From assembly GCF_018734325.1 (NCBI RefSeq), contig NZ_CP073754.1:1364001-1428000 (forward strand): a stretch of DNA of 64,000 bases, in the 5' to 3' direction. Shown here one piece after another: positions 32,608 to 54,915 of this stretch. Positions within the stretch are counted from its first letter, which is position 1. Each line of letters opens with the position of its first letter. Position numbers and translations under genes: made by a program. This stretch comes from Methylomonas paludis (GTDB lineage: Bacteria > Pseudomonadota > Gammaproteobacteria > Methylococcales > Methylomonadaceae). The notes beneath the pieces are model-generated. The model was not told the DNA's origin. It searched no databases and saw nothing but the letters and a program-made list of their open reading frames with translations.

Positions 32608-32669
32608 CCCCCCGCGTCAGACTAGTTGTCGTCTCAAATTTTTAAAGCCAATAAAATTTGAGATTAGAG

Positions 32670-33161
32670 ATGAAAACATATACAAGGTATTCTGAAGACT
32701 TCAAAGAGCAAGCTCTGAGAAAAGTTTACAACCGTGGAAACGACCAATCGATTCAGGATATTGCGAAGGACTTGAACGTTTGCTGGCAAACCCTAAAAAC
32801 ATGGATGAAAAAAGCTAAATTGCATAACTCCCGAGATCTACCGTCGAAATCGAAACGCCCTGATGATTGGCGTCCTGAAGAACGTCTCTCAGCGTTACAG
32901 AAATCTTATGGCTTGAACGGGGAAGACTTGAATGCCTGGTGCCGTGAACAAGGGTTATTCGTTCATCAGCTTGAGCAGTGGAAAGCTGAATTCTGTCGTC
33001 AGGGTGGCGTATCTGAAAAAGGTGAAGTGCATACCCTAAAAGCGGAAATTCATACCCTGGAGCGAGAGTTGTTACGCAAAGACAAAGCCTTAGCAGAAGC
33101 CGCCGCGCTGTTGGTTCTGCAAAAAAAGTTCCGAGCGCTCTTGGGGGGAGAGGTCGAATGA
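32670..33161 (+). CDS. IS3-type transposase OrfA
   Basis: A 163-residue helix-turn-helix protein (YSEDFKEQALRKVYNRGNDQ, IAKDLNVCWQTLKTWMKKAK), with a C-terminal coiled-coil/leucine-zipper-like part (LKAEIHTLERELLRKDKAL). The ATG at 32670 is preferred over an upstream TTG at 32658. Its stop overlaps the OrfB start as ATGA rather than using an obvious -1 slippery site. Confidence 0.88.
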   Translation: MKTYTRYSEDFKEQALRKVYNRGNDQSIQDIAKDLNVCWQTLKTWMKKAKLHNSRDLPSKSKRPDDWRPEERLSALQKSYGLNGEDLNAWCREQGLFVHQLEQWKAEFCRQGGVSEKGEVHTLKAEIHTLERELLRKDKALAEAAALLVLQKKFRALLGGEVE

Positions 33162-34240
33162 CTGCCCACGAAGAGCGCAAGCAAGTAATTGTTTTACTGA
33201 ATGAATCGATAATAGCGGGTGCGCGGCAAGCCCAAGCTTGTGAAGTGCTGGGTTTAAGCGAACGCACCTTGCAGCGCTGGCAGACCGGTGAGACCGTTCA
33301 TTGTGATCAACGTCCATTACGTGAATATCAACCGCCGCATAAGCTTACCGTCATGGAGCGAGCCGAGGTGTTGGCTGTTGCCAATTCCGATGAATTTGGG
33401 CATCTGCCGCCGAGTCAGATCGTACCTCGGCTGGCCGATCAAGGCCGCTATCTGGCTTCTGAATCGACATTCTATCGCGTACTGCGAGCAGAAAACCAAT
33501 TGGCACACCGTCGCAGTGAACGCCCTGCTCAATCCCGCACTAAACCGCGTGCCCTCTGTGCCACCGTACCTAACCAACTTTATAGCTGGGATATTACCTA
33601 TCTGCCATCAGCAATCCGTGGACAGTTTTTCTATCTTTACCTGTTTGTGGATATTTTCAGCCGAAAGATCGTGGGTTGGCAGGTGTTTGAAGAGGAAAGC
33701 AGTACCTTGGCAGGCGAATTGTTACGTGACCTGTGCCATCGTGAGGGGATACAGCCCAAACAGCTGATACTGCACTCTGATAACGGTAGCCCCATGAAAG
33801 GCGCTACCATGCTGGCAACCTTGCAACAACTCGGTGTCATGCCCTCGTTAAGTCGGCCTTCGGTTAGCAACGACAATCCTTACTCAGAATCGCTCTTTAA
33901 GACCTTAAAATACCGGCCAAACTATCCGTTAAAGCCGTTTGCAAAGGTGACGGATGCTCGTGACTGGGTAACGAGACTGGTGGAATGGTACAACCACGAG
34001 CATCGCCACAGCGCCATCCGGTTTGTCACGCCAGCGCAACGCCATGAAGGCTTAGATCAAGGCCTACTGGTTAAGCGTAAAGCCGTTTATGAGGCTGCCC
34101 GTGATCGAAACCCGAAGCGATGGACTGGTAACACGCGGAATTGGGATTGCATCCAAGCAGTCCACCTTAATCCTGATAAGCCAGTGACTAACAGTAAACC
34201 TAATACAGAGGAGACAACTCAGAACAAAAATGCCGCTTAA
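33158..34240 (+). CDS. IS3-type transposase OrfB (rve-type integrase core)
   Basis: A 360-residue protein with an N-terminal helix-turn-helix (ACEVLGLSERTLQRWQTG) and the rve catalytic core. Candidate DDE residues are Asp in SWDITYLPS, Asp in LILHSDNGSP and Glu in NDNPYSESLFKTLK. The frame is intact. The purine-rich GGAGAGG just upstream and the ATGA overlap suggest coupled translation from OrfA. Confidence 0.9.
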   Translation: MTAHEERKQVIVLLNESIIAGARQAQACEVLGLSERTLQRWQTGETVHCDQRPLREYQPPHKLTVMERAEVLAVANSDEFGHLPPSQIVPRLADQGRYLASESTFYRVLRAENQLAHRRSERPAQSRTKPRALCATVPNQLYSWDITYLPSAIRGQFFYLYLFVDIFSRKIVGWQVFEEESSTLAGELLRDLCHREGIQPKQLILHSDNGSPMKGATMLATLQQLGVMPSLSRPSVSNDNPYSESLFKTLKYRPNYPLKPFAKVTDARDWVTRLVEWYNHEHRHSAIRFVTPAQRHEGLDQGLLVKRKAVYEAARDRNPKRWTGNTRNWDCIQAVHLNPDKPVTNSKPNTEETTQNKNAA

Positions 34241-41106: not shown

Positions 41107-41168
41107 CCCCCCGCGTCAGACTAGTTGTCGTCTCAAATTTTTAAAGCCAATAAAATTTGAGATTAGAG

Positions 41169-41660
41169 ATGAAAACATATACAAGGTATTCTGAAGACTT
41201 CAAAGAGCAAGCTCTGAGAAAAGTTTACAACCGTGGAAACGACCAATCGATTCAGGATATTGCGAAGGACTTGAACGTTTGCTGGCAAACCCTAAAAACA
41301 TGGATGAAAAAAGCTAAATTGCATAACTCCCGAGATCTACCGTCGAAATCGAAACGCCCTGATGATTGGCGTCCTGAAGAACGTCTCTCAGCGTTACAGA
41401 AATCTTATGGCTTGAACGGGGAAGACTTGAATGCCTGGTGCCGTGAACAAGGGTTATTCGTTCATCAGCTTGAGCAGTGGAAAGCTGAATTCTGTCGTCA
41501 GGGTGGCGTATCTGAAAAAGGTGAAGTGCATACCCTAAAAGCGGAAATTCATACCCTGGAGCGAGAGTTGTTACGCAAAGACAAAGCCTTAGCAGAAGCC
41601 GCCGCGCTGTTGGTTCTGCAAAAAAAGTTCCGAGCGCTCTTGGGGGGAGAGGTCGAATGA
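41169..41660 (+). CDS. IS3-type transposase OrfA (copy 2)
   Basis: It encodes the same 163 residues as OrfA of copy 1, intact. The helix-turn-helix could still bind the element's ends and affect transposition of copy 1; that is inference. Confidence 0.85.
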   Translation: MKTYTRYSEDFKEQALRKVYNRGNDQSIQDIAKDLNVCWQTLKTWMKKAKLHNSRDLPSKSKRPDDWRPEERLSALQKSYGLNGEDLNAWCREQGLFVHQLEQWKAEFCRQGGVSEKGEVHTLKAEIHTLERELLRKDKALAEAAALLVLQKKFRALLGGEVE

Positions 41661-42358
41661 CTGCCCACGAAGAGCGCAAGCAAGTAATTGTTTTACTGAA
41701 TGAATCGATAATAGCGGGTGCGCGGCAAGCCCAAGCTTGTGAAGTGCTGGGTTTAAGCGAACGCACCTTGCAGCGCTGGCAGACCGGTGAGACCGTTCAT
41801 TGTGATCAACGTCCATTACGTGAATATCAACCGCCGCATAAGCTTACCGTCATGGAGCGAGCCGAGGTGTTGGCTGTTGCCAATTCCGATGAATTTGGGC
41901 ATCTGCCGCCGAGTCAGATCGTACCTCGGCTGGCCGATCAAGGCCGCTATCTGGCTTCTGAATCGACATTCTATCGCGTACTGCGAGCAGAAAACCAATT
42001 GGCACACCGTCGCAGTGAACGCCCTGCTCAATCCCGCACTAAACCGCGTGCCCTCTGTGCCACCGTACCTAACCAACTTTATAGCTGGGATATTACCTAT
42101 CTGCCATCAGCAATCCGTGGACAGTTTTTCTATCTTTACCTGTTTGTGGATATTTTCAGCCGAAAGATCGTGGGTTGGCAGGTGTTTGAAGAGGAAAGCA
42201 GTACCTTGGCAGGCGAATTGTTACGTGACCTGTGCCATCGTGAGGGGATACAGCCCAAACAGCTGATACTGCACTCTGATAACCTTAATCCTGATAAGCC
42301 AGTGACTAACAGTAAACCTAATACAGAGGAGACAACTCAGAACAAAAATGCCGCTTAA
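41657..42358 (+). pseudogene. OrfB with in-frame 127-codon deletion
   Basis: The frame is kept (233 instead of 360 residues), but residues from LILHSDN directly to LNPDKPVTNSK are joined. The lost part includes the region after the second Asp and the catalytic Glu, so no transposase activity is expected. The junction has only a 2-base microhomology (AC). Confidence 0.9.
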
Positions 42359-44521: not shown

Positions 44522-44585
44522 GGGTCATCTAAATAGTCGTTTTTCTAGTTATAAATGACACAAAATCACAAATCTGGCTGGGTTG

Positions 44586-44782
44586 GGTGGATTGGCTGTT
44601 AGCTAATCCACCTTAATTTTGCAGGCTGTCCGGCGTTTTGCTGCGCGAAAACGCCCTACAATCAGTGGGTGATGGTGGGATTGGGTGTTTGCCGGTCAGC
44701 TGGGTCGTGGGTGGATTGGCTGTTAGCTAATCCACCTTAATTTTGCGGCTGTCCGGCGTTTTGCTGCGCGAAAACGCCCTAC
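44586..44782 (-). repeat. Composite REP pair, two direct copies
   Basis: A 72-base unit occurs twice (44586-44659 and 44710-44782). Each has one palindrome GGTGGATTAGCTAACAGCC.. (arms GGTGGATT/AATCCACC) and one headed GTAGGGCGTTTTCGCGCAGC (arms GGCGTTTT/AAAACGCC) on the minus strand. The second copy's GTAG overlaps the stop codon of the peroxidase gene, so the hairpin sits exactly at that gene's 3' end and may terminate or stabilise its mRNA. Confidence 0.8.
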
Positions 44783-46188
44783 TCTAAATCGGTTTGTCTG
44801 AGTTGGCGTAAGGATATGCCTTGGTATTCGCCGGTTAATGTTTTCAGAAATGCGACCAAGCTGTCGGCTTCATCTTGGTTTAAGTGCTTGTCGGCTTGTA
44901 CTTGGGCCATGATTTTGACCGCTTCGTCTAGTGAGGCGATGCTGCCGTCATGGAAGTATGGATAGGTCAGCTCCACATTGCGCAGGTTAGGCACTTTGAA
45001 TACTTGGCGGTCATTTTCCTGTTTGGTGACATTGAAGCGGCCATTATCGGCTGTAGTCAAGGCGGTTCCGCGCAATTGAAAGTAGTTTTGTTTGCGGCCC
45101 ATTTTTTCAAATGAAAGCCCGCCCAGGGTGGGGCCAAAGTGACAGGATGTGCAGTTTTCTTTAAACAGGGCGTAGCCTTGTTTTTCTTGGGCCGATAAGC
45201 TGTCGGTGCTGCCGCGCAAGTATTGGTCAAAGCGGGCGTTGCCGGTGACCAGTGATTGCTCGAAGCTGGCAATGGCCTGGGTGACGCCGGCTTTGCTTAA
45301 GCCTTGTTGTGGATACAGCTCGGCAAATGCGGTCCGATAACTGTCAACTTGGTTGAGGCTGGCGATGACATGATCCCATTCGGCACCCATTTCGCCGGGA
45401 TTGGCCACCGGGCCGGCAGCTTGTTCCACCAAATCAGCGGCGCGGCCATCCCAAAATTGGGCGAGGTTATAGCCGGCGTTATAAACACTGGGTGAATTGA
45501 TCGGCCCCACTTGACCGCCAATGCCGGTGGCGGTTTTGGCCTGATCGGTGCCGCCCTTGGCCAGACTATGACAGGATGCGCAATTGAGGGTGTTATCGCC
45601 TGACAAGCGCTTATCAAAAAATAACTGCCGGCCCAGTGCCACGGTGTTAGGGTCTAGGGTTAATTGCAATGGTAAAGGCTGAACCGGTTCACCTTTCAGG
45701 GCCGGTGCGGTATCGGCACTCCAGGCCAGTTTGCTGCGCTGCTCTGCGATCCAGGCCAGCAGGGTGGACTTTTCGGTTTCGTTGACTCTATCAGTCCAGT
45801 GCATGGACAGGTATAAAGCCGGCGGCATGGCATCATTGCGAATTGCGCCTTCCAGCCGGGCCAGCATTAGGGGGGTGAAGCCGGTTTCGCCGCTATACAT
45901 GGCTTTGCTGATCACCAGTCGCGCCGAGGCATTGGCTATGTCGTCGGCCATCAGTTGTTTGGCAATCGGCAGATCGGCATAAATCGGCAGCCGGGTCATA
46001 CCGGGCGAGTGGCAGTCTACGCATTTGTTTTGTAAGATGGTGCTGACGGCGGCAAAGTTGGCCGATGTGCCGGCTATCGGCGCAATCACGGGGTTTTTGC
46101 CGGTTAAGCCTATCAGATTGGATAGCGGCAGAAATAATGCCGCCGCGCCGAACACGGTTAATAGGATGTGAGTTTTTTTCATCGTCAT
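44779..46188 (-). CDS. Triheme cytochrome c peroxidase (YhjA-like)
   Basis: A periplasmic-facing membrane-anchored peroxidase of 469 residues. The N-terminal helix is followed by three CxxCH heme sites: Cys56 (CVDCH), Cys203 (CASCH) and Cys346 (CTSCH). The last two form the di-heme CcpA/MauG-type domain (SPSVYNAGYNLAQFWDGRA, VPNLRNVELTYPYFHDGS); the extra N-terminal heme domain is as in E. coli YhjA, a quinol-linked peroxidase. ATG 46188 is used since GGAG lies nine bases upstream. It is a likely H2O2 sink in the periplasm. Confidence 0.9.
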   Translation of the reverse strand: MTMKKTHILLTVFGAAALFLPLSNLIGLTGKNPVIAPIAGTSANFAAVSTILQNKCVDCHSPGMTRLPIYADLPIAKQLMADDIANASARLVISKAMYSGETGFTPLMLARLEGAIRNDAMPPALYLSMHWTDRVNETEKSTLLAWIAEQRSKLAWSADTAPALKGEPVQPLPLQLTLDPNTVALGRQLFFDKRLSGDNTLNCASCHSLAKGGTDQAKTATGIGGQVGPINSPSVYNAGYNLAQFWDGRAADLVEQAAGPVANPGEMGAEWDHVIASLNQVDSYRTAFAELYPQQGLSKAGVTQAIASFEQSLVTGNARFDQYLRGSTDSLSAQEKQGYALFKENCTSCHFGPTLGGLSFEKMGRKQNYFQLRGTALTTADNGRFNVTKQENDRQVFKVPNLRNVELTYPYFHDGSIASLDEAVKIMAQVQADKHLNQDEADSLVAFLKTLTGEYQGISLRQLRQTDLE

Positions 46189-46359
46189 TTTATGCAACTC
46201 CGCAGCTTGATGGTGGAGTGGGATAGCCAGTCTTTTACGAGCAGACCCGGCGCATATCTCCTGTTAATTTAGCTATCATCAGTTTATAAATACCCGCGTA
46301 ACGCGAGTCATTTCATGGCCATCAGTCGTTGATTCGGACTGTAGCGGCCATCGTTAAAT

Positions 46360-46419: not shown

Positions 46420-49400
46420 TCAGCTGTTTAATATGGCTGCTGATTGGGGTTGGAAATTGGTCAGGGTATGTATCTTGACCGCTTGGTTTAGATCGGCAAA
46501 TTCAAATTCGCCCACGGCTTGAAAGCCCCAGGAGGTATCGGTATTGGCCAGAATGGCGGCGTCTATGGCCAATGCCTGGTGCGTGTCGCGGGCAAATGCG
46601 GCTAAATGCAAGGCTTTGTCTACGCTATCACCCAAGACGGTGTAATCCATTTTGATGGAAGAACCAATATTACCTTCGATCAGGGTACCAGCGACGATGC
46701 CAAAACCAAATTGAATGGCGCTGATATTGCCATTGGCGTGTTTGGCGACCAGGGCCTGCAAGCGTTGTCGGGCGTCTGCACAAGCCCCTATGGCGATATC
46801 GACCTGGTTGGGGGCAAAGTGGGCGATGATGCCGCTGCGCGAGTAGCGGGCCACTTGGCCGCCATAGGCTATAAAGCAGGCCGAACAGATTTCCAGATAT
46901 TCGTTGAATACTTCTATCAGTTCCGGTACCGAAAATTGTTTGGTTAGCGGTGAAAAATCACTCATGCAGCCGGATACCACGATTTTGTCCAGGTTTTTGA
47001 AGGGGGCGGTTAAGGGATTAATGCCATCGGTTAGCAATTTAAGCAAGGCCGGCTGGGTATAACGGCCAATAATGTGGTAAGACTCGGCGATATTGCCCAG
47101 CATCATCCCCACCGCTTGTAACATTAAGTCGGTGCTTTGGGTAATGGCGACGGTTTTCATGTCCCAATCAGAGAATAAACGTTCTTCGCAGCCATATTCA
47201 GCCGTCAGCACCGTCACATTGCAGTGGCGCGGATCACGGCCTATTTTTTCCAGTAACTGATCGACGAGATGGGGTTCGCCTTCCAGAATTTGAAAGAAAT
47301 AATCGCCGGCGGCGATCAATACACCGGTGATATCAATTCTGCGGTTATTAATGCTGGATAGGCGGCCGATTTCCAGGATATCGGCTTCACTGAGTATGGC
47401 ATTGACTTTGCTGATATAGGTGAGCCGTTTTAAACCCAATGGGCTGGGCTGGTCGGCATGGTAATCTTTTAAATTGCGGATGGCTTTGCTCATTAGCCAG
47501 CCGCTCTGAATCAGGGCTTTCAAGTCGGTTTGGGAGAGCTGTCTTAGTTCGCAGTCGGACAGGCAGCGTACCGTTTCTGCACGCCGGTTCAGATGTTGTG
47601 GTTGTAGTTCGCCGAAATAATCGCCTGGGCCTAATTGCCGAATCACCCGGCCATCCTGAATGACTTTGAGTTGCCCCAAATCCACCACATAGGCAAATTG
47701 GCCGACATCGCCCTGATGAAATATTTCGTCACCCGCTTTGAAATGGGATTTTTGCAGATGCTCGGATGGGGCTTGTGCCAATACCGCGATATCATTGCGG
47801 AAGGCCAGCACCAAAAACCAGTCGATTATTATTCTGAGATTGCGTTCCAGCCCCGGCACCGAGAGCAGGTTGATTAATCTGGAAATAAACCAGGCCGGTT
47901 TGCCGCTGATGATTAAGCGGCCCAGCCGGCACAGGGAATATTCCGCCATATTGTAAGGCTGGATAAACCAGCTGCTTTTTTTGAAACTGTGCGGCGCATA
48001 GCCCTGGGAATGTGCCCAGGCGTTAAAGCCGGCGGTCTGCCCTAATTCGACCAGATCGTTGGTGAAGATAAACGGGGTAACTTCTGAGCTGGAGTCAAAC
48101 TCAGTCAGCCAGATGTTCTGGAAACCATTCAGGCGCAATTGCGGGTCAACAGAAAAGGGTGCAGTTAAGGGATCGCGGCCCAGGATGGGGATGCCGGGTA
48201 GGTGTAAGGTGGTGTTAATCACCAAGCCAACGGCTTGAGACTGGCCATTGCTGAAAAACAATTGTTTTTCGGTGACGCTGTTGATGTGCTGGTCCTGATG
48301 TTCGGTGATACCGGCTTTAAGCAGGCAGCGGCTGCGTTTGTTGCCGATTAAGGTTTCAAACGCCGGCCACTGGGATTTAGGTTCGCTGTATAGATGAATT
48401 TGCCAGCCGGTCGTGCGCAGTACGGTATATGAGGATTCTGCTGCGCGCAGAATCTGGCTGACTTCAACGGCGATGCCATAGGCGGATTCTTGGTTTCCGG
48501 TGACGGCAAAGGTCAGCAGGCGGGCTTTTTCGACCGGCTCGGCGGCGAACTCGGCTTCTTCAACCAGATCCAGCACCCGCTGTCTGATCCTTAAGGCATC
48601 GGCAACTGAATCGATGGGGCAGCTGTGGGCAGTCATGCCTGGAATGTCGGAGACGCTGGATTTTGCCGTCAAGGCCAGGACTAGGCTGTCGTAGGCTAAT
48701 TCCAGGGTTTCGTTGTTTTTGCGTTTGGCGATGACGATATGATTGTTAACATCAATTGTTTCCAGATGGCCGACTACAATCTGGGTTTGCTGGACGATGC
48801 GCCGCAATGGGTTGACTACGTTGCCGGGTTGTACTGTGCCGCCAATGACTTCCGGTAAAAATGGAATAAACAGGAAATTGGCCTGGTCATGCAGCAGGGT
48901 AATATTGACGTGTGAATATTGGCCGATCAGTTTCTCGATTTTGATGGCTGCCTGTAAGGCTGCCAAACCACCGCCGACGATGACAATATTGGCTGGTTTG
49001 TCGCGCGGCTCCGGACGTTTTAAATGACCCGCCGAGTTGATCAGGCAGGACAATACCACGCCATAGAACAAGATGTGTTCGGTGGGGGTTTCGGGCAGCA
49101 ATAGGGCAAATACGGTAAAGGCCAGGATCAAAAACAGCGATAAAGGCCGCAACAGCACGCCGGCCATCATTAGAATGCCGGCGCTGACTTCTACCAGAGC
49201 CATGAACAGGGTGAACGCTTGGGGATGCAGGGAGAGGATGGGTAATTGGTAGATGCTGATGATGGCTATCGACAGATTGGGTTGCATGACCTTGAAAAAC
49301 ACGCCCAGATACAAGAGCGTGGTGCCGGTGAGGATGCGCATGATGGCCTGCGCCCGCAAACGCGGCTGGTTAGCCAGCCAGGACTGCCAGTTTAATAATA

Positions 49401-50067
49401 GCGGCAGGGTAGGCAAGGGCACATAATGGCGTCCCGCCCCTTGCATGACTAGATAGATGTTGGCGCCAATAAAGGCGCCGGCGTAAGCCAGGATGGCTGC
49501 GCCGTATAAATAGCCGCCCAGCAGGCTTAATAGAATGGCCAGTGCCGAAAAAACCCGTACATAGATGCCAAACAGGATGGTCAGGCCTAAAAATATTTCC
49601 GCCCAGCGCAGCCAATGCCATTGCGGGCTTAATTGACTGAGTTCCAGGTCGGGGGCGAGAAAGGTGGGCGAGGTGAAGGGATCTACCCCAAACCGGGGTT
49701 CCGCGCCAAAGGCGGATGATAATAAAATCCAGGCGATGCAGACGCGTAAAATTCTGGGTACGTGATCGCCGTAAGAGGCCAGGCGGGCTTGCAAGTCTGG
49801 AAATAATTCACGGGCGCCGGTAAAGCCCAGCCAGACCCAGCCGACAATGAACAGTGAAAACGCCGAAATCATGCTCAGATTTAATACCGAAAAACTGGAA
49901 AACAGCTCGGGCCTGAGTTTTGAGTTCCAGAGTTCAATCTGTTGCGGTGACAGTATCCAGCGTTCGTGGGCTAGCAGCGTGTCAGAAAACAGCAGTAAGC
50001 CAAGGATGCAAAAATGGGTTAACAGTGCCTTGCCGGCGGGCTGTATGCGGATTCCGAATATTGACAT
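46420..50067 (-). CDS. Membrane DoxX-like / NDH-2 / cNMP-binding / BLUF / pseudo-cyclase fusion protein
   Basis: A single uninterrupted frame of 1215 residues. Residues 1-345: signal-like helix and about eight membrane helices with DoxX-like stretches. Residues 358-690: FAD/NAD(P)H oxidoreductase of NDH-2 type with IVIVGGGLAALQAA at 361-374. Residues 768-860: cyclic-nucleotide-binding domain with the phosphate-cassette-like GEL...RRAET (819-832). Residues 879-972: BLUF flavin photoreceptor with Tyr884, Asn908 and Gln926 (FFQILEG). Residues 1025-1200: class III cyclase fold, closest in my memory to the Beggiatoa BLUF-cyclase bPAC. In the cyclase part the two metal Asp positions are Cys1034 and Ser1078, and the Asn/Arg pair is Asp1150/His1154, so cyclase activity is doubtful. 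It may couple quinone or NADH redox state, light and cNMP. No partner is in an operon; a triheme peroxidase follows after a hairpin. Confidence 0.88.
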   Translation of the reverse strand: MSIFGIRIQPAGKALLTHFCILGLLLFSDTLLAHERWILSPQQIELWNSKLRPELFSSFSVLNLSMISAFSLFIVGWVWLGFTGARELFPDLQARLASYGDHVPRILRVCIAWILLSSAFGAEPRFGVDPFTSPTFLAPDLELSQLSPQWHWLRWAEIFLGLTILFGIYVRVFSALAILLSLLGGYLYGAAILAYAGAFIGANIYLVMQGAGRHYVPLPTLPLLLNWQSWLANQPRLRAQAIMRILTGTTLLYLGVFFKVMQPNLSIAIISIYQLPILSLHPQAFTLFMALVEVSAGILMMAGVLLRPLSLFLILAFTVFALLLPETPTEHILFYGVVLSCLINSAGHLKRPEPRDKPANIVIVGGGLAALQAAIKIEKLIGQYSHVNITLLHDQANFLFIPFLPEVIGGTVQPGNVVNPLRRIVQQTQIVVGHLETIDVNNHIVIAKRKNNETLELAYDSLVLALTAKSSVSDIPGMTAHSCPIDSVADALRIRQRVLDLVEEAEFAAEPVEKARLLTFAVTGNQESAYGIAVEVSQILRAAESSYTVLRTTGWQIHLYSEPKSQWPAFETLIGNKRSRCLLKAGITEHQDQHINSVTEKQLFFSNGQSQAVGLVINTTLHLPGIPILGRDPLTAPFSVDPQLRLNGFQNIWLTEFDSSSEVTPFIFTNDLVELGQTAGFNAWAHSQGYAPHSFKKSSWFIQPYNMAEYSLCRLGRLIISGKPAWFISRLINLLSVPGLERNLRIIIDWFLVLAFRNDIAVLAQAPSEHLQKSHFKAGDEIFHQGDVGQFAYVVDLGQLKVIQDGRVIRQLGPGDYFGELQPQHLNRRAETVRCLSDCELRQLSQTDLKALIQSGWLMSKAIRNLKDYHADQPSPLGLKRLTYISKVNAILSEADILEIGRLSSINNRRIDITGVLIAAGDYFFQILEGEPHLVDQLLEKIGRDPRHCNVTVLTAEYGCEERLFSDWDMKTVAITQSTDLMLQAVGMMLGNIAESYHIIGRYTQPALLKLLTDGINPLTAPFKNLDKIVVSGCMSDFSPLTKQFSVPELIEVFNEYLEICSACFIAYGGQVARYSRSGIIAHFAPNQVDIAIGACADARQRLQALVAKHANGNISAIQFGFGIVAGTLIEGNIGSSIKMDYTVLGDSVDKALHLAAFARDTHQALAIDAAILANTDTSWGFQAVGEFEFADLNQAVKIHTLTNFQPQSAAILNS

Positions 50068-50574: not shown

Positions 50575-53500
50575 CTATTCCTCTCGCTTGTGCAGATAGC
50601 CATAAAATATCGGCAGCAGTAATAGGGTGAGCAGGGTTGAGGAGAGGATGCCGCCGATGACTACGGTTGCCAGTGGGCGTTGCACTTCGGCACCGGTGCC
50701 GGTGGCCAGGGCCATGGGCACAAAGCCCAGTGATGCTACCAGGGCTGTCATCAGCACTGGGCGCAGCCGGGTCAGGGCGCCGGTGTAAATGGCGTTGTCC
50801 AGGGTTTGGCCTTGTTCGCGCAGGCTGCGGATGCAGCTGATCATCACCAGGCCATTCAGTACCGCTACCCCGGACAGGGCAATAAAGCCGACGGCTGCCG
50901 GAACCGATAGCGGAATGTCGCGCCACCAGAGGGCCAGCAAACCACCGGTCAGGGCAAACGGCACGGCGCTGAACACCAGCACGCTGTCTTTGAGGTTGCC
51001 GCACACCATGAATAACAGGATAAAAACCAGCAGCAATGCCAGCGGCACGACGATTTGCAGGCGCTGGCCGGCTGATTGGAGATGTTCGAACTGGCCGCCC
51101 CAGCTGATCCAGTAGCCGGGGGGGATTTTTAACTGCTGTAGTTGTTGCTGGGCCTCTGCGACGCAGGAGCCGATGTCACGGCCCCGAATATTGGCGCTGA
51201 CTACTATCCGGCGCTTGCCGTTTTCGCGGCTGATCTGATTGGGGCCAGGTGCCAGATCGAGGCTGGCTACTTCTGCCAGCGGGATAAAGCTGGTCTGGCC
51301 GTTATTGTTTGCCGCCTCCGGCAAGGTCAGCGGCAGGCGTTTGATGGCTTCCAGATCGCTGCGCAACTGTTCCGGCAGACGTACGATGATGTCAAAGCGC
51401 CGGTCGCCCTGGAACAGGGTGCCGGCTTTGGCACCGCCCAGGGCGATGGCCACGGTTTCCTGTACGTCAGCGATATTCAGGCCATAGCGGGCGATTTTGG
51501 CGCGGTTGATATTGATGGTCAATACCGGCAGGCCGCTGGTCTGTTCTATTTTTAGTTCGGACAGACCGGGGATTTTTTCTAAAATTTCCAGAATGCCGGC
51601 GGCGGTGTGCTGCAGGATGGCGGTATCATCGCCGAATACTTTGACGGCGATATCGCTGCGCACCCCGGAAATCAGTTCATTAAAGCGTAACTGGATCGGT
51701 TGGGAGAATTCATAAATATTGCCGGGCTGTTGTTGCGCGGCTTGCTGGATTTCGGCCAGTAATTGGCTTCTGGGTTTGCTGGGGTCGGGCCATTGTTCCT
51801 GGGGTTTGAGCATGATATAGCCATCGGAAATATTGGGCGGCATGGGGTCTGAGGCTATTTCGGCGGTGCCGGTGCGGGCAAACAGTCGTTGTATTTCCGG
51901 AAACTGTCGGGTTAAGGCGGTTTCCAGTTGTTGCTGCATGGCGACTGATTGGGTCAGACTGGTGCCGGGGATACGTAGAGCCTGGATGGCAAAGTCACCT
52001 TCATTGAGACTGGGCACAAATTCACTGCCCAAGCGCGTCACCAGCAGCCCGGACAATAGCATGACGATGAGCGCTGCATAGAGTACGGTGGCTTGATGCC
52101 GCATGACTTGTTGCAGCAGTGGGGTGTACAGGCGTTTGGCGCTGCGCATGATCAGGGTTTCGGTTTCGCTGATGTTGCCGCTCATGCCCAGTGCCAGTGC
52201 GGCGGGAATAAAGGTCACGGAAAGCAGCATTGCGCCCAGTAAGGTAATCAAAACAGTTAGCGCCATTGGCTGAAACATTTTGCCTTCCACGCCGTCCAGG
52301 GCAAAAATCGGCAAGTAAACCACCATGATGATTAATTGACCGAACAGCAGGGCGCGTCTGGCTTCGGCAGCGGCGCTAAATATTTCATGATAGCGCTCGG
52401 TTTTGCTTAATTGCCGGCCCAGCCGGGTTTGGGCGTGAGCCAAACGCCGGACGCTGGTTTCTACAATCACTACGGCACCGTCGATAATCACGCCAAAGTC
52501 CAGCGCTCCCAGGCTCATCAGATTGGCGCTGACATCGGCAGCGACCATGCCGCTAAAGGTAAACAGCATGGCCAGCGGGATGATCAGGGCGGTAATCAGG
52601 GCAGCACGCAAATTACCCAGAAATATAAATAGTATCAGGATCACCAGCATGGCCCCGGCACTCAGATTGTGGCGCACGGTGCTGATGGCTTTATCAACCA
52701 GTACGGTGCGGTCGTAAACGCTGACGGCCTGGATGCCGGGCGGCAGGCTGCGGTTGATTTCCTGCATTTTGGCGGCCACGGCCTGAGCTACGCTGCGGCT
52801 GTTTTGGCCGATCAGCATGAACACGGTGCCTAATACCACTTCATGGCCATTTTCAGTGGCGGCGCCGGTGCGTAATTCCCGGCCTATTTCCACGCTGCCG
52901 ATGTCGCGTATCCGCACCGGCAGGCCCTGGACGTTGGTGAGGATAATCTGGCCGATATCGTTGAGTGTTTCTACTTGGCCGGGTACCCGAATCAAATATT
53001 GTTCACCGCGTTTTTCGATATAACCGGCGCTGACATTATTGTTATTGCGGGCCAGTGCGGTGAGGATATCGGTCAGGCTCAGGCCGTAGGCGGCGAGTTT
53101 TTCCGGCAGCGGAGCTATCTGGTATTGCTTGGTGTAACCGCCCAGGCTGTTGATGTCGGTGACGCCGGGTACATTACGCAATTGCGGTTTGATGATCCAG
53201 TCCTGGATTTCGCGTAAATCGGCTGCGCTGTAGGGCGTGCCATCGGGCTTTTTGGCCTGATCCTGGGCCTGGACTATCCATAAGTAGATTTCCCCCAGTC
53301 CGGTGGATATCGGTCCCAGAATCGGGGTGATGCCGCTGGGCAGTTTGTCTTTGGCTTCCTGCAGGCGCTGGTTGACCAGTTGCCGGGCAAAGTATATATC
53401 GGTACCGTCGGCAAAGATGGCGGTGACCTGGGATAAACCGTAGCGCGACAGGGAGCGGGTTTGTTGCAGATGCGGCAGGCCGGCCAGCGTGGTTTCAAGG

Positions 53501-53703
53501 GGATAGCTGATGCGCTGTTCGGTTTCCAGCGGGGCGTAACCCGGTGCGGCGGTATTGATCTGCACCTGGACATTGGTGATATCCGGTACGGCGTCGATGG
53601 GTAATATCCGGTAATTGATCAGGCCCAGCACTGCCATGGCTGTGACTGCCAGTAATACCAGCCAGCGTTGGCGGATGGCCAGTTGAATAATTTGGCTAAA
53701 CAT
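50575..53703 (-). CDS. czcA: Heavy-metal efflux RND pump CzcA (HME1 type)
   Basis: An inner-membrane RND pump of 1042 residues. The motif GALDFGVIIDGAVVIVE matches the DFGxxxDGA signature used to assign the Co2+/Zn2+/Cd2+/Ni2+ branch rather than the Cu+/Ag+ branch. Other typical parts are VPDITNVQVQINT near the N terminus and the long periplasmic loops. The 3' end is followed by the REP-rich region; czcB is 15 bases upstream. No outer-membrane CzcC gene is present in the window. Confidence 0.93.
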   Translation of the reverse strand: MFSQIIQLAIRQRWLVLLAVTAMAVLGLINYRILPIDAVPDITNVQVQINTAAPGYAPLETEQRISYPLETTLAGLPHLQQTRSLSRYGLSQVTAIFADGTDIYFARQLVNQRLQEAKDKLPSGITPILGPISTGLGEIYLWIVQAQDQAKKPDGTPYSAADLREIQDWIIKPQLRNVPGVTDINSLGGYTKQYQIAPLPEKLAAYGLSLTDILTALARNNNNVSAGYIEKRGEQYLIRVPGQVETLNDIGQIILTNVQGLPVRIRDIGSVEIGRELRTGAATENGHEVVLGTVFMLIGQNSRSVAQAVAAKMQEINRSLPPGIQAVSVYDRTVLVDKAISTVRHNLSAGAMLVILILFIFLGNLRAALITALIIPLAMLFTFSGMVAADVSANLMSLGALDFGVIIDGAVVIVETSVRRLAHAQTRLGRQLSKTERYHEIFSAAAEARRALLFGQLIIMVVYLPIFALDGVEGKMFQPMALTVLITLLGAMLLSVTFIPAALALGMSGNISETETLIMRSAKRLYTPLLQQVMRHQATVLYAALIVMLLSGLLVTRLGSEFVPSLNEGDFAIQALRIPGTSLTQSVAMQQQLETALTRQFPEIQRLFARTGTAEIASDPMPPNISDGYIMLKPQEQWPDPSKPRSQLLAEIQQAAQQQPGNIYEFSQPIQLRFNELISGVRSDIAVKVFGDDTAILQHTAAGILEILEKIPGLSELKIEQTSGLPVLTININRAKIARYGLNIADVQETVAIALGGAKAGTLFQGDRRFDIIVRLPEQLRSDLEAIKRLPLTLPEAANNNGQTSFIPLAEVASLDLAPGPNQISRENGKRRIVVSANIRGRDIGSCVAEAQQQLQQLKIPPGYWISWGGQFEHLQSAGQRLQIVVPLALLLVFILLFMVCGNLKDSVLVFSAVPFALTGGLLALWWRDIPLSVPAAVGFIALSGVAVLNGLVMISCIRSLREQGQTLDNAIYTGALTRLRPVLMTALVASLGFVPMALATGTGAEVQRPLATVVIGGILSSTLLTLLLLPIFYGYLHKREE

Positions 53704-53718
53704 CGGGGCTGCTCCGGG

Positions 53719-54915
53719 TTAGTGGCTGTGCTCGGCAGCGTGCTTGCCGTGCTCGGATTTGATGATAAAGCTGCCCTGTGCGGCGTATTCGCTACCCGGT
53801 TGTAGTCCTGAGATGATTTCCACTCGCCGGCCATCGGTCTGGCCGGTGCTGACCGGCTGGGCGCTAAAACCACCGGGTACCCGGACAAATACCACGGTTT
53901 GACCATCGATGGTTTGCAGGGCATCGGCTTGGACGGTTACCGCTGCGGCTGTGCTGCCGGTGATGATTTCGGCGCTGATGAATAAACCGGGACGCCAGCG
54001 CATTTGCGGGTTGGCCACCAGGATCCTGGTTTTGGCGGTGCGGGTTTGTGCGCCCATCAAGGCGCCGATATAGCTTATTTGGCCGGAGGCGGTGGTATTA
54101 AAGCCGCTGGTGCTGATGGTGACAGTTTGGCCAATCTGCACGGCATTGATGTCCTGTGCCGGTACGTTGATCTCGGCGGCGACTGTGGATAAATCCGACA
54201 GGGTGAAGATGCTGGCGTCTTCTTTGACGGCTTCGCCCAGGGCGATATGTTTTTCTACTACCATGCCGTCAAACGGGGCGCGTATTTCATAACGATTGAT
54301 GGTCTCGCCGCTGGTTTGTACGGTGGCGATGGAACCCAATGCCAGTAATTTTTGTTGAGCGTTGTGCAGCGCAATTTCGGCTTCCTGGGCGCTGAGTTGG
54401 GCTTGTAAATAGTCTTTTTTGGCCAGAATGCCGGCATCCCACAATTCCGTGGCGCGGGCAAAGCCGGCCTGGGCCAAGGTTAAGCGCTTTTGGGCGGCGA
54501 ATAATTCGCTGCGCTGTTCGGCCAGGGCAATGCTGGCGATGACGGCCAGTAACTGGCCTTTTTTGACTTGCGAGCCCAGGCTGACGCTAATATCGGCGAC
54601 TACCCCGGCCAGACGCGGCACGACGTGGGCGGTTTTATCTTCATTTAATTTGATTTCGCCGGGCAGGGTGATGATTTGTTGCAATTGCGCCGGTGCGGCG
54701 ATTTGGGTGGAAATCCCTGCTGCCTGGATTTGCTGGTCGCTTAGCTCGATTATGGCATCATGGTTCTCGCCGGCAGGGGCCGCAGCGGATTCGGGCTGTT
54801 CGCCGGCGGTTGGTATCGGCAGACGTAGGATTAATAGCGCTGCGGTCAGGCCGGCTGCCAGCAGGCCGCCACGCAGCAGCCACGGGTTTTGGCAAGAAAA
54901 GATAGTTTTGGTCAA
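53719..54915 (-). CDS. czcB: Heavy-metal efflux periplasmic adaptor CzcB
   Basis: The membrane-fusion protein of the Czc-type pump (398 residues). N-terminal membrane anchor, then an AcrA-like barrel-sandwich and hairpin (DKTAHVVPRLAGVVADISVS, YEIRAPFDGMVVEKHIALGE). The C terminus is His-rich (SEHGKHAAEHSH), as in many CzcB-like proteins, and could bind metal. It is in one operon with czcA. Confidence 0.9.
   Translation of the reverse strand: MTKTIFSCQNPWLLRGGLLAAGLTAALLILRLPIPTAGEQPESAAAPAGENHDAIIELSDQQIQAAGISTQIAAPAQLQQIITLPGEIKLNEDKTAHVVPRLAGVVADISVSLGSQVKKGQLLAVIASIALAEQRSELFAAQKRLTLAQAGFARATELWDAGILAKKDYLQAQLSAQEAEIALHNAQQKLLALGSIATVQTSGETINRYEIRAPFDGMVVEKHIALGEAVKEDASIFTLSDLSTVAAEINVPAQDINAVQIGQTVTISTSGFNTTASGQISYIGALMGAQTRTAKTRILVANPQMRWRPGLFISAEIITGSTAAAVTVQADALQTIDGQTVVFVRVPGGFSAQPVSTGQTDGRRVEIISGLQPGSEYAAQGSFIIKSEHGKHAAEHSH

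Follow-up and report, generated by a model that had tools for sequence, protein, structure and literature searches.

How does a single protein come to combine a membrane domain, an NDH-2 fold, a cyclic-nucleotide-binding (CNB) domain, a BLUF domain and a stretch of cyclase homology, in that order from the N terminus, and what would light do to it? The gene lies within 64,000 nucleotides of the Methylomonas paludis genome (contig NZ_CP073754.1, positions 1,364,001 to 1,428,000; hereafter the window), begins with ATG and runs as a single unbroken frame (Table 1). An earlier note on this DNA had proposed both the continuous frame and this set and order of modules, and both are borne out. Three of the Pfam profiles match clearly: BLUF (PF04940; residues 879-971, 85.7 bits, cut-off 25), cNMP_binding (residues 775-854, 57.5 bits, cut-off 27.5) and Pyr_redox_2 (residues 360-551, 48.7 bits, cut-off 26.1). 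DoxX is marginal, a single 77-residue stretch (106-182) barely over its cut-off (24.7 bits versus 23.6), and the Guanylate_cyc profile has no match in the window protein. The motifs GGGLAALQAA and RRAET are located where the same note put them, and its statement that no described protein carries this set holds in the open PMC literature, where no description of the protein or its module set was found among the matches listed. Promoter-like sites are about as frequent as chance would give (8 against 7.1), and terminator-like sites number 16, against 9.2 expected.

Table 1. Coordinates, in window positions, of the fused gene, its domains and the neighboring peroxidase gene
Feature	Positions	Strand	Length or residues
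Whole gene: membrane domain, pseudo-NDH-2, CNB, BLUF, pseudo-cyclase	46420..50067	(-)	1215 aa
Polytopic membrane domain, DoxX-like by marginal Pfam match	49012..49998	(-)	residues 24-352
NDH-2 fold; motifs for FAD, NAD and quinone all degenerate	47773..49002	(-)	residues 356-765
CNB domain; retains Glu820 and Arg829, with Gln822 and Glu831 in place of the cassette Ala	47482..47760	(-)	residues 770-862
BLUF domain; Tyr884, Asn908, Gln926, Trp and Met kept	47152..47433	(-)	residues 879-972
Class III cyclase homology, pseudo-enzyme	46456..46998	(-)	residues 1024-1204
Tri-haem peroxidase (Haem_bd and CCP_MauG), next gene downstream, conserved neighbor	44779..46197	(-)	472 aa

A survey for the same architecture among 237 genomes of the family gave matches in 37 at 1e-30, one of which (G189) is an ordinary NDH-2 and was not counted, leaving 36 carriers with the window genome included. 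Near full-length alignments in one frame were obtained for 28 of these, and partial ones, mostly at contig ends, for the other eight; in one of the 28 (G203) a TAG was counted within the aligned stretch, while L056, the same contig under its named record, has an open frame across residues 1-1203. Since the frame recurs near full length across many genomes, a frameshift artefact is very unlikely, and we ruled out a sequencing error or missed frameshift as the source of the fusion. The protein occurs in methanotrophs and in some ammonia oxidisers (Nitrosomonas).

Could the fusion simply be decaying? Within the family search the protein is present in only those 36 of 237 genomes, and the pseudo-cyclase is its least conserved domain, with a median identity to the window protein of 49%, compared with 80% for the membrane domain, the highest (34 rows each, those of the membrane domain including five N-terminal fragments, L081, L087, L105, L107 and L109, that may be of either type). 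However, dN/dS among unsaturated pairs is well below 1 for all five domains, 0.12-0.36 even in the pseudo-cyclase (in these comparisons, the identity values and the trees below, rows without a separate cyclase gene are labelled fused by default), and by this measure the family is under purifying selection. Moreover, the family search found the fused type in 7 of 29 genera, and Nitrosomonas also holds it. A non-functional relic is therefore hardly credible.

The protein had been read as a possible respiratory-chain-linked enzyme. The two-Rossmann fold of its NDH-2 part is confirmed on the predicted model, but the residues that such an enzyme uses are replaced. In a comparison of 47 family sequences with six NDH-2 of the same genus, 0/47 have the catalytic Glu and 0/47 the Asp of GD, the second FAD motif; in the NAD motif GxGxxG the third Gly has become Ala in 44/47, and the AQ quinone motif is replaced, with few exceptions over all these signatures. 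The family departs from the solved NDH-2 structures 9mqy, 4nwz and 5na1 in the same NAD, FAD and quinone signature residues. The acid that would contact the ribose is His or Asn in 46/47, although the compared Rhodobacter NDH-2 has Asn there too. That protein (Rhodobacter sp. CZR27, WP_096787383) shares the order of oxidoreductase followed by CNB, with 25% identity over residues 359-855; unlike the window protein, it keeps the NAD Gly triplet, the catalytic Glu and the GD pair, and it is a 556-aa gene product with neither membrane domain nor BLUF. The NDH-2 part of the family thus looks inactive from its residues, despite the retained fold, and the idea of a light-regulated NADH:quinone oxidoreductase, put forward in the earlier note, is weakened to the point of being distinctly improbable.

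The photoreceptor has fared differently from the cyclase attached to it. By phmmer, residues 877-1206 are homologous over their whole length to OaPAC (227-230 bits; structures 4yus, 9f1w) and bPAC (219 bits; 5m27), and the five BLUF residues that were checked are shared with both. Tyr884, Asn908 and Gln926, correctly named before, are invariant across the 11 sequences of alignment A1; the Asn, Gln, Trp and Met are present in 39/39 fused proteins, and the Tyr also in L103 and L040 (a gene that appears as L004 too), where the main residue table cuts it off. In contrast to OaPAC and bPAC, the window protein has lost the cyclase active site and is joined to a membrane/pseudo-NDH-2/CNB protein. Cys and Ser stand in place of the two metal-binding Asp, and Asp and His in place of the transition-state Asn and Arg; the first metal Asp is found in 0/39 fused proteins. 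The bPAC-like character claimed for the C-terminal part therefore holds as homology over its full length and fails as function: judged by its active-site residues, the region looks like an inactive pseudo-cyclase, and an active cyclase in the fused protein is ruled out on these grounds.

The separate-gene relatives are a new fact here and had not been noticed earlier. In these, a "reader" (membrane domain, pseudo-NDH-2 and CNB) and a BLUF cyclase are encoded by distinct genes. All six residues that serve metal, base and transition state (the two Asp together with Lys, Thr, Asn and Arg) are intact in 12/12 unfused BLUF cyclases; beyond those six, the GD pair of OaPAC has Glu for its Asp in 2/12 and Gly in 5/12, and DYT has Phe for its Tyr in 2/12. 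The CNB phosphate cassette follows the same division. Unfused readers have the canonical Ala/Ala in 17/17, near copies included (L092/L093, L097/L098, L148/L149); for the last five, added to an initial 12, Ala/Ala was predicted beforehand and then seen. In the fused proteins, position 831 is Glu or Asp in 37/37 and position 822 is not Ala in 36/37, all 37 rows extending into the BLUF part. Because the cyclase active site and the two cassette Ala are intact when the genes are separate and lost when they are fused, with the BLUF residues of the fused proteins untouched, we infer that fusion of a BLUF cyclase with a reader replaced a relay from light to cAMP to CNB domain by direct coupling. The fused protein would then be a membrane-bound blue-light receptor, a reading to which we assign a probability of roughly 45%. 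Blue light would switch the hydrogen-bond network of the BLUF flavin, and the change would reach the pseudo-NDH-2 and membrane domains by way of the pseudo-cyclase, acting as a structural transmitter, and then the CNB domain, with no second messenger involved.

The CNB domain itself suggests another arrangement, in which the fused protein still binds cAMP made by a different cyclase and integrates light with the cAMP level of the cell. Glu820 and Arg829 of the cassette are present in 37/37 fused proteins, so that cyclic nucleotide binding may survive, and a frame of 736 aa supplies the window genome with one further class III cyclase domain. The two drifted cassette positions, both Ala in every unfused reader, weigh against such a two-input sensor, which we regard as rather unlikely. 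For the same reason, the earlier suggestion that cyclic nucleotides set the state of the protein is doubtful for the fused form, but likely for its unfused relatives.

The fused proteins form a single clade (SH-aLRT 100; the 36 rows labelled fused in one tree include L081 and L087, both of which end before the BLUF part), and therefore the joint loss of cyclase and CNB residues counts as one correlated evolutionary event and not as repeated evidence. Congruent reader and cyclase trees were sought and not found, as the two place the unlinked group differently. The unlinked readers fall together with the split ones (support 76; a second reader tree left out L106, a single SAR324 sequence on a long branch), whereas unlinked cyclases group with the fused ones (support 99; the cyclase trees left out L094, with a cut-off cyclase, and L072, with a broken end, and the OaPAC-rooted tree carries a long-branch warning). 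The reader tree places L082, a reader that lacks a cyclase, as sister to the fused clade. Given this conflict and the position of L082, different pairs may have been the source of the fusion, and a working pair may or may not have been the ancestor. Unlinked intact BLUF cyclases occur in five genomes, each of which carries a separate reader gene as well. In three genomes a reader is present but no BLUF cyclase is found at 1e-20, which indicates that a reader can do without one. The neighbors of unlinked readers (a GDSL lipase and others) show no clear functional link.

In the unfused form, the relay would consist of a light-driven writer, a CNB reader and, where the genes adjoin, a metallo-hydrolase eraser. 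Indeed, a metallo-beta-lactamase-fold gene with HxHxDH is near 7/7 adjacent or opposed reader/cyclase pairs with enough sequence. An eraser is not a general feature, since no HxHxDH frame was found beside the five unlinked cyclases and none is labelled next to the five unlinked readers; among loci of fused or undetermined type, such a frame occurs in 2/41, away from the gene. The hydrolase is Apyc1-like in L097 and in its 98%-identical copy in L098; those of L096 and L101 are assigned to the RNase Z/MBL superfamily only, and a cyclic-nucleotide phosphodiesterase model scores 31.9 on the L096 hydrolase, far below its cut-off of 400. The Apyc1-like hydrolase in L097 recalls Pycsar defence, a circuit of a cyclase and a CNB membrane effector, to which the separate-gene form might have added a light sensor; PADLOC matches the L096 reader to Pycsar TIR effectors (7.5e-14) and its cyclase to PycC (1.4e-21). 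These matches, however, concern the shared domains (CNB and class III cyclase), and the cyclase is a BLUF-PAC homologue that shares the base residues K and T with OaPAC, which makes a Pycsar-like origin highly improbable.

What would direct coupling act on? In E. coli BluF the output is an EAL domain, not a cyclase, and no membrane redox fold is known to be attached. Like the fused protein, BluF joins a light sensor to a degenerate output domain of nucleotide-enzyme type, and it is described as antagonising BluR (PMC3509220). By analogy, the pseudo-cyclase might bind a regulator, with the membrane half merely an anchor, but it is the membrane domain that is best conserved (median 80%, against 49% for the pseudo-cyclase), and we consider a BluF-like mode improbable. 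His34 and His331 of the membrane domain are also kept in the four stand-alone relatives aligned. The closest known counterparts of this domain may be the GGCX/HTTM-like membrane fold and DoxX-like proteins; Foldseek with the membrane-domain model returned no match with E up to 0.001, and the genes next to two stand-alone membrane domains (L036 and L129) gave little hint of function.

A gene absent from the earlier note, the tri-haem peroxidase, lies directly downstream at 24 of the 34 fused loci with readable downstream sequence (23/33 named loci plus the window). At the remaining ten the next gene is not this peroxidase: four are of the Nitrosomonas type, three belong to the deepest fused branch and three are others. 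Three CxxCH motifs are present in the window gene and in 21/21 complete downstream homologues. Among solved structures the window gene product is best matched by 9qdt, which bears no more specific name than "Probable cytochrome c peroxidase"; in domain makeup the gene product resembles E. coli YhjA (Haem_bd and CCP_MauG with three CxxCH), which is described as a three-haem enzyme and proposed to be quinol-fed (PMC10301912). Because the usual partner gene is of this YhjA type, the arrangement suggests light control of a quinol-linked periplasmic redox defence. Returning to direct coupling, the membrane domain might handle a redox cofactor, quinone or some other, and the protein's output might tune the quinol-fed defence, both less certain than the coupling itself. 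The full picture, a short circuit of a second-messenger pathway in which a blue-light cyclase and its cAMP-reading partner were joined and then lost their messenger chemistry, leaving the photoreceptor to drive a quinone-linked membrane redox protein mechanically while the unfused relatives still relay, is tentative and in our estimate falls short of an even chance.

On this account, unlinked, adjacent and fused genes would form a natural series that shows, one residue at a time, how a messenger step is lost. BLUF cyclases are known mostly as optogenetic tools, and the reader is a candidate native partner for one; a light-driven membrane effector that works without a messenger would also be of interest to optogenetics. 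The light sensitivity of methanotrophs and Nitrosomonas is an old question, and the fused protein would place a blue-light receptor in both.

The continuous frame that the earlier note had read is real, and the domain profiles that match its product are listed below. Matches to the BLUF, cNMP_binding and Pyr_redox_2 models bear out most of the architecture that the note had proposed, whereas DoxX is barely significant and the Pfam cyclase model is silent. The C-terminal part is nevertheless homologous to bPAC, as had been suggested: an end-to-end alignment joins residues 877-1206 to the BLUF photoactivated cyclases OaPAC and bPAC, but the catalytic residues are lost. The M. paludis genome (a single 3.67-Mb contig) has one BLUF domain, one class III cyclase domain elsewhere and, as fits a methanotroph, two AMO/pMMO A-subunit family proteins. 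Upstream of the fused gene lie a CusA/CzcA-type heavy-metal efflux permease and adaptor (window 50575-54915). Two similarly arranged frame sets occupy the plus strand at window 32658-34240 and 41157-42358, of which the one at 41657-42358 matches IS3-family transposases.

Fused gene in the window and Pfam domains of its product
Feature	Position	Strand	Note
Fused gene	46420-50067	minus	1215 aa, ATG start
DoxX	residues 106-182		Pfam, barely significant
Pyr_redox_2	residues 360-551		Pfam
cNMP_binding	residues 775-854		Pfam
BLUF	residues 879-971		Pfam

A survey of homologues found the architecture recurring near full length in 3 of 37 genomes of the genus, the window's own counted. A search of 237 genomes of the family produced matches at 1e-30 in 37. 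One of these (genome G189) is an ordinary NDH-2, with 27% identity over the NDH-2 part; dropping it leaves 36 genomes in 7 of 29 genera. At least 70 loci were recovered from named genomes, the best 80 of 82 matching stretches being used, with carriers in Methylobacter, Crenothrix, other Methylococcaceae, Ca. Methylumidiphilus and Nitrosomonas, including N. aestuarii Nm36. Nitrosomonas branches inside the methanotroph clade, which suggests transfer. Pairwise dN/dS was at most 0.36 in every domain for unsaturated pairs; for pairs with the window protein, synonymous sites are saturated in most domains, which makes these pairs uninformative. The membrane domain also exists as a stand-alone protein (loci L036, 3956-5017, and L129, 5536-6660), with His34 and His331 kept in both; the L036 gene, in Phaeobacter, adjoins a vanadium haloperoxidase gene.

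Sequence comparison establishes the domain order, the intact BLUF residues, the degenerate NDH-2 and the dead cyclase of the fused protein. By its residues, the cyclase part of the fused proteins is a pseudo-enzyme. In the window protein, the metal Asp pair of OaPAC is replaced by Cys and Ser, and the transition-state Asn and Arg by Asp and His. Among 39 fused proteins, including one (L072) broken after the second metal site, the first metal Asp is retained in none, the second in three, the Asn in four and the Arg in six. We take the metal, base and transition-state roles of these residues to be those they have in OaPAC. All 39 retain the Asn, Gln, Trp and Met of the BLUF domain; the Tyr is present also in the L103 and L040 proteins (L004 and L040 are one gene), whose alignment rows start too late to show it. 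Downstream of the fused gene, one Methylococcales MAG encodes a protein that joins BLUF to a PsiE membrane domain (L070, 10265-11209).

Established on the same footing are the separate-gene relatives with their intact residues, the changed CNB cassette and the peroxidase partner. At some named loci, a reader gene (membrane domain, pseudo-NDH-2 and CNB) matches residues 1-868 only. A separate BLUF cyclase follows it on the same strand in six Methylococcus-like loci (L094, L096, L099-L102), is found on the opposite strand at a distance of about 1.6 kb in Methylolobus L097 and Methylotetracoccus L098, and is on a different contig in the lake MAGs L110-L114, where 5/5 genomes encode both. Four Alphaproteobacterial loci (L082, L092, L093, L095) have a reader without a cyclase in the available sequence, and a search at 1e-20 of the genomes of L082, L092 and L095 found no BLUF cyclase. 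All 12 readable unfused cyclases, a set that omits the cut L094 copy, keep the metal Asp pair, Lys and Thr as base residues, the Asn and the Arg. Close by, in 7/7 adjacent or opposed loci whose sequence extends far enough, is a metallo-beta-lactamase-fold gene with HxHxDH, along with a small cytochrome c (five loci) or tri-haem peroxidase (two). The L097 hydrolase is Apyc1-like (match to 7u2s, 4.5e-30, best stretch residues 3-121), and that of L098 is 98% identical to it; the others read are RNase Z-like only. No HxHxDH frame was found beside the five unlinked cyclases, and no frame next to the five unlinked readers was labelled as one. With cyclase, reader and nearby hydrolase together, the adjacent form looks like the writer, the reader and perhaps the eraser of a putative cyclic-nucleotide product. 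Beside the BLUF cyclase of L100 (5610-6851) and L101 (8660-10042), the hydrolase is joined to a receiver-like domain, and L102 3802-5049 resembles these genes.

Ala occupies both 822 and 831 in 12/12 adjacent, opposed and cyclase-less readers and, as predicted beforehand, in 5/5 unlinked readers, several unfused readers being near copies of one another. In contrast, the 37 fused CNB rows, all extending into BLUF, have Glu or Asp at 831 without exception, and 36 of them have a residue other than Ala at 822. Thus, among these proteins, the canonical cassette accompanies an unfused reader, and the changed cassette a fused, dead cyclase. Since the fused proteins form one clade, this co-change counts as one event, not 37. 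The reader and cyclase trees conflict over the unlinked group; the cyclase-less L082 is sister to the fused readers in the reader tree. Glu820 and Arg829 are kept in the fused CNB domains, and because they survive, the strongest rival to a purely light-driven route is a two-input sensor whose fused CNB still binds cAMP. The parts of the protein are of known kinds. In the open-access PMC literature, among the matches listed, we found no description of the module combination, in line with the earlier note, or of the separate-gene relatives or the paired loss.

Of 33 named fused loci with 500 nt or more of downstream sequence, 23 have a tri-haem peroxidase as the next same-strand gene (24 of 34 with the window; 8 further loci were not judgeable), as do 13/19 loci of another set with partly overlapping genomes. 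In four loci, the fused gene and the peroxidase gene share 4 nt. Every complete downstream peroxidase at the named loci (21/21) has three CxxCH motifs, two more being cut. Among solved structures, the window peroxidase best matches 9qdt, over 55-459. E. coli YhjA is described as having three haems and is proposed to be quinol-fed (PMC10301912). Adjoining the 3' end of the window peroxidase gene, about 124 nt of intergenic DNA are tandemly duplicated (window 44584-44793), and both copies contain an identical 39-nt hairpin-bearing stretch. The peroxidase does not directly follow the fused gene at the four Nitrosomonas-type loci that could be judged (L072, L084, L090, L104), at three on the deepest branch of the fused clade (L077, L089, L103), or at L056, L070 and L088. 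Upstream in L086 are a DUF1722/2-thiouracil desulfurase gene and a molybdopterin oxidoreductase with a ferric-reductase-like membrane protein, a pairing as in MsrPQ. Short single-domain proteins carrying NCRFLQ, a LOV motif, are encoded near the fused gene in L069, L079, L084 and L086, immediately upstream of it in Nitrosomonas L084. At some of the loci but not all, these neighbours hint at a connection with light and with oxidative stress in the periplasm.

Most likely, in our reading, the fused protein conducts a signal from light through BLUF, the dead cyclase and the CNB/pseudo-NDH-2 portion to the membrane. Light would alter the BLUF domain, and the dead cyclase, kept as a structural part, would relay the change. 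The CNB and pseudo-NDH-2 would convey it onward to the membrane domain, which may tune quinol-linked redox reactions at the periplasmic face.
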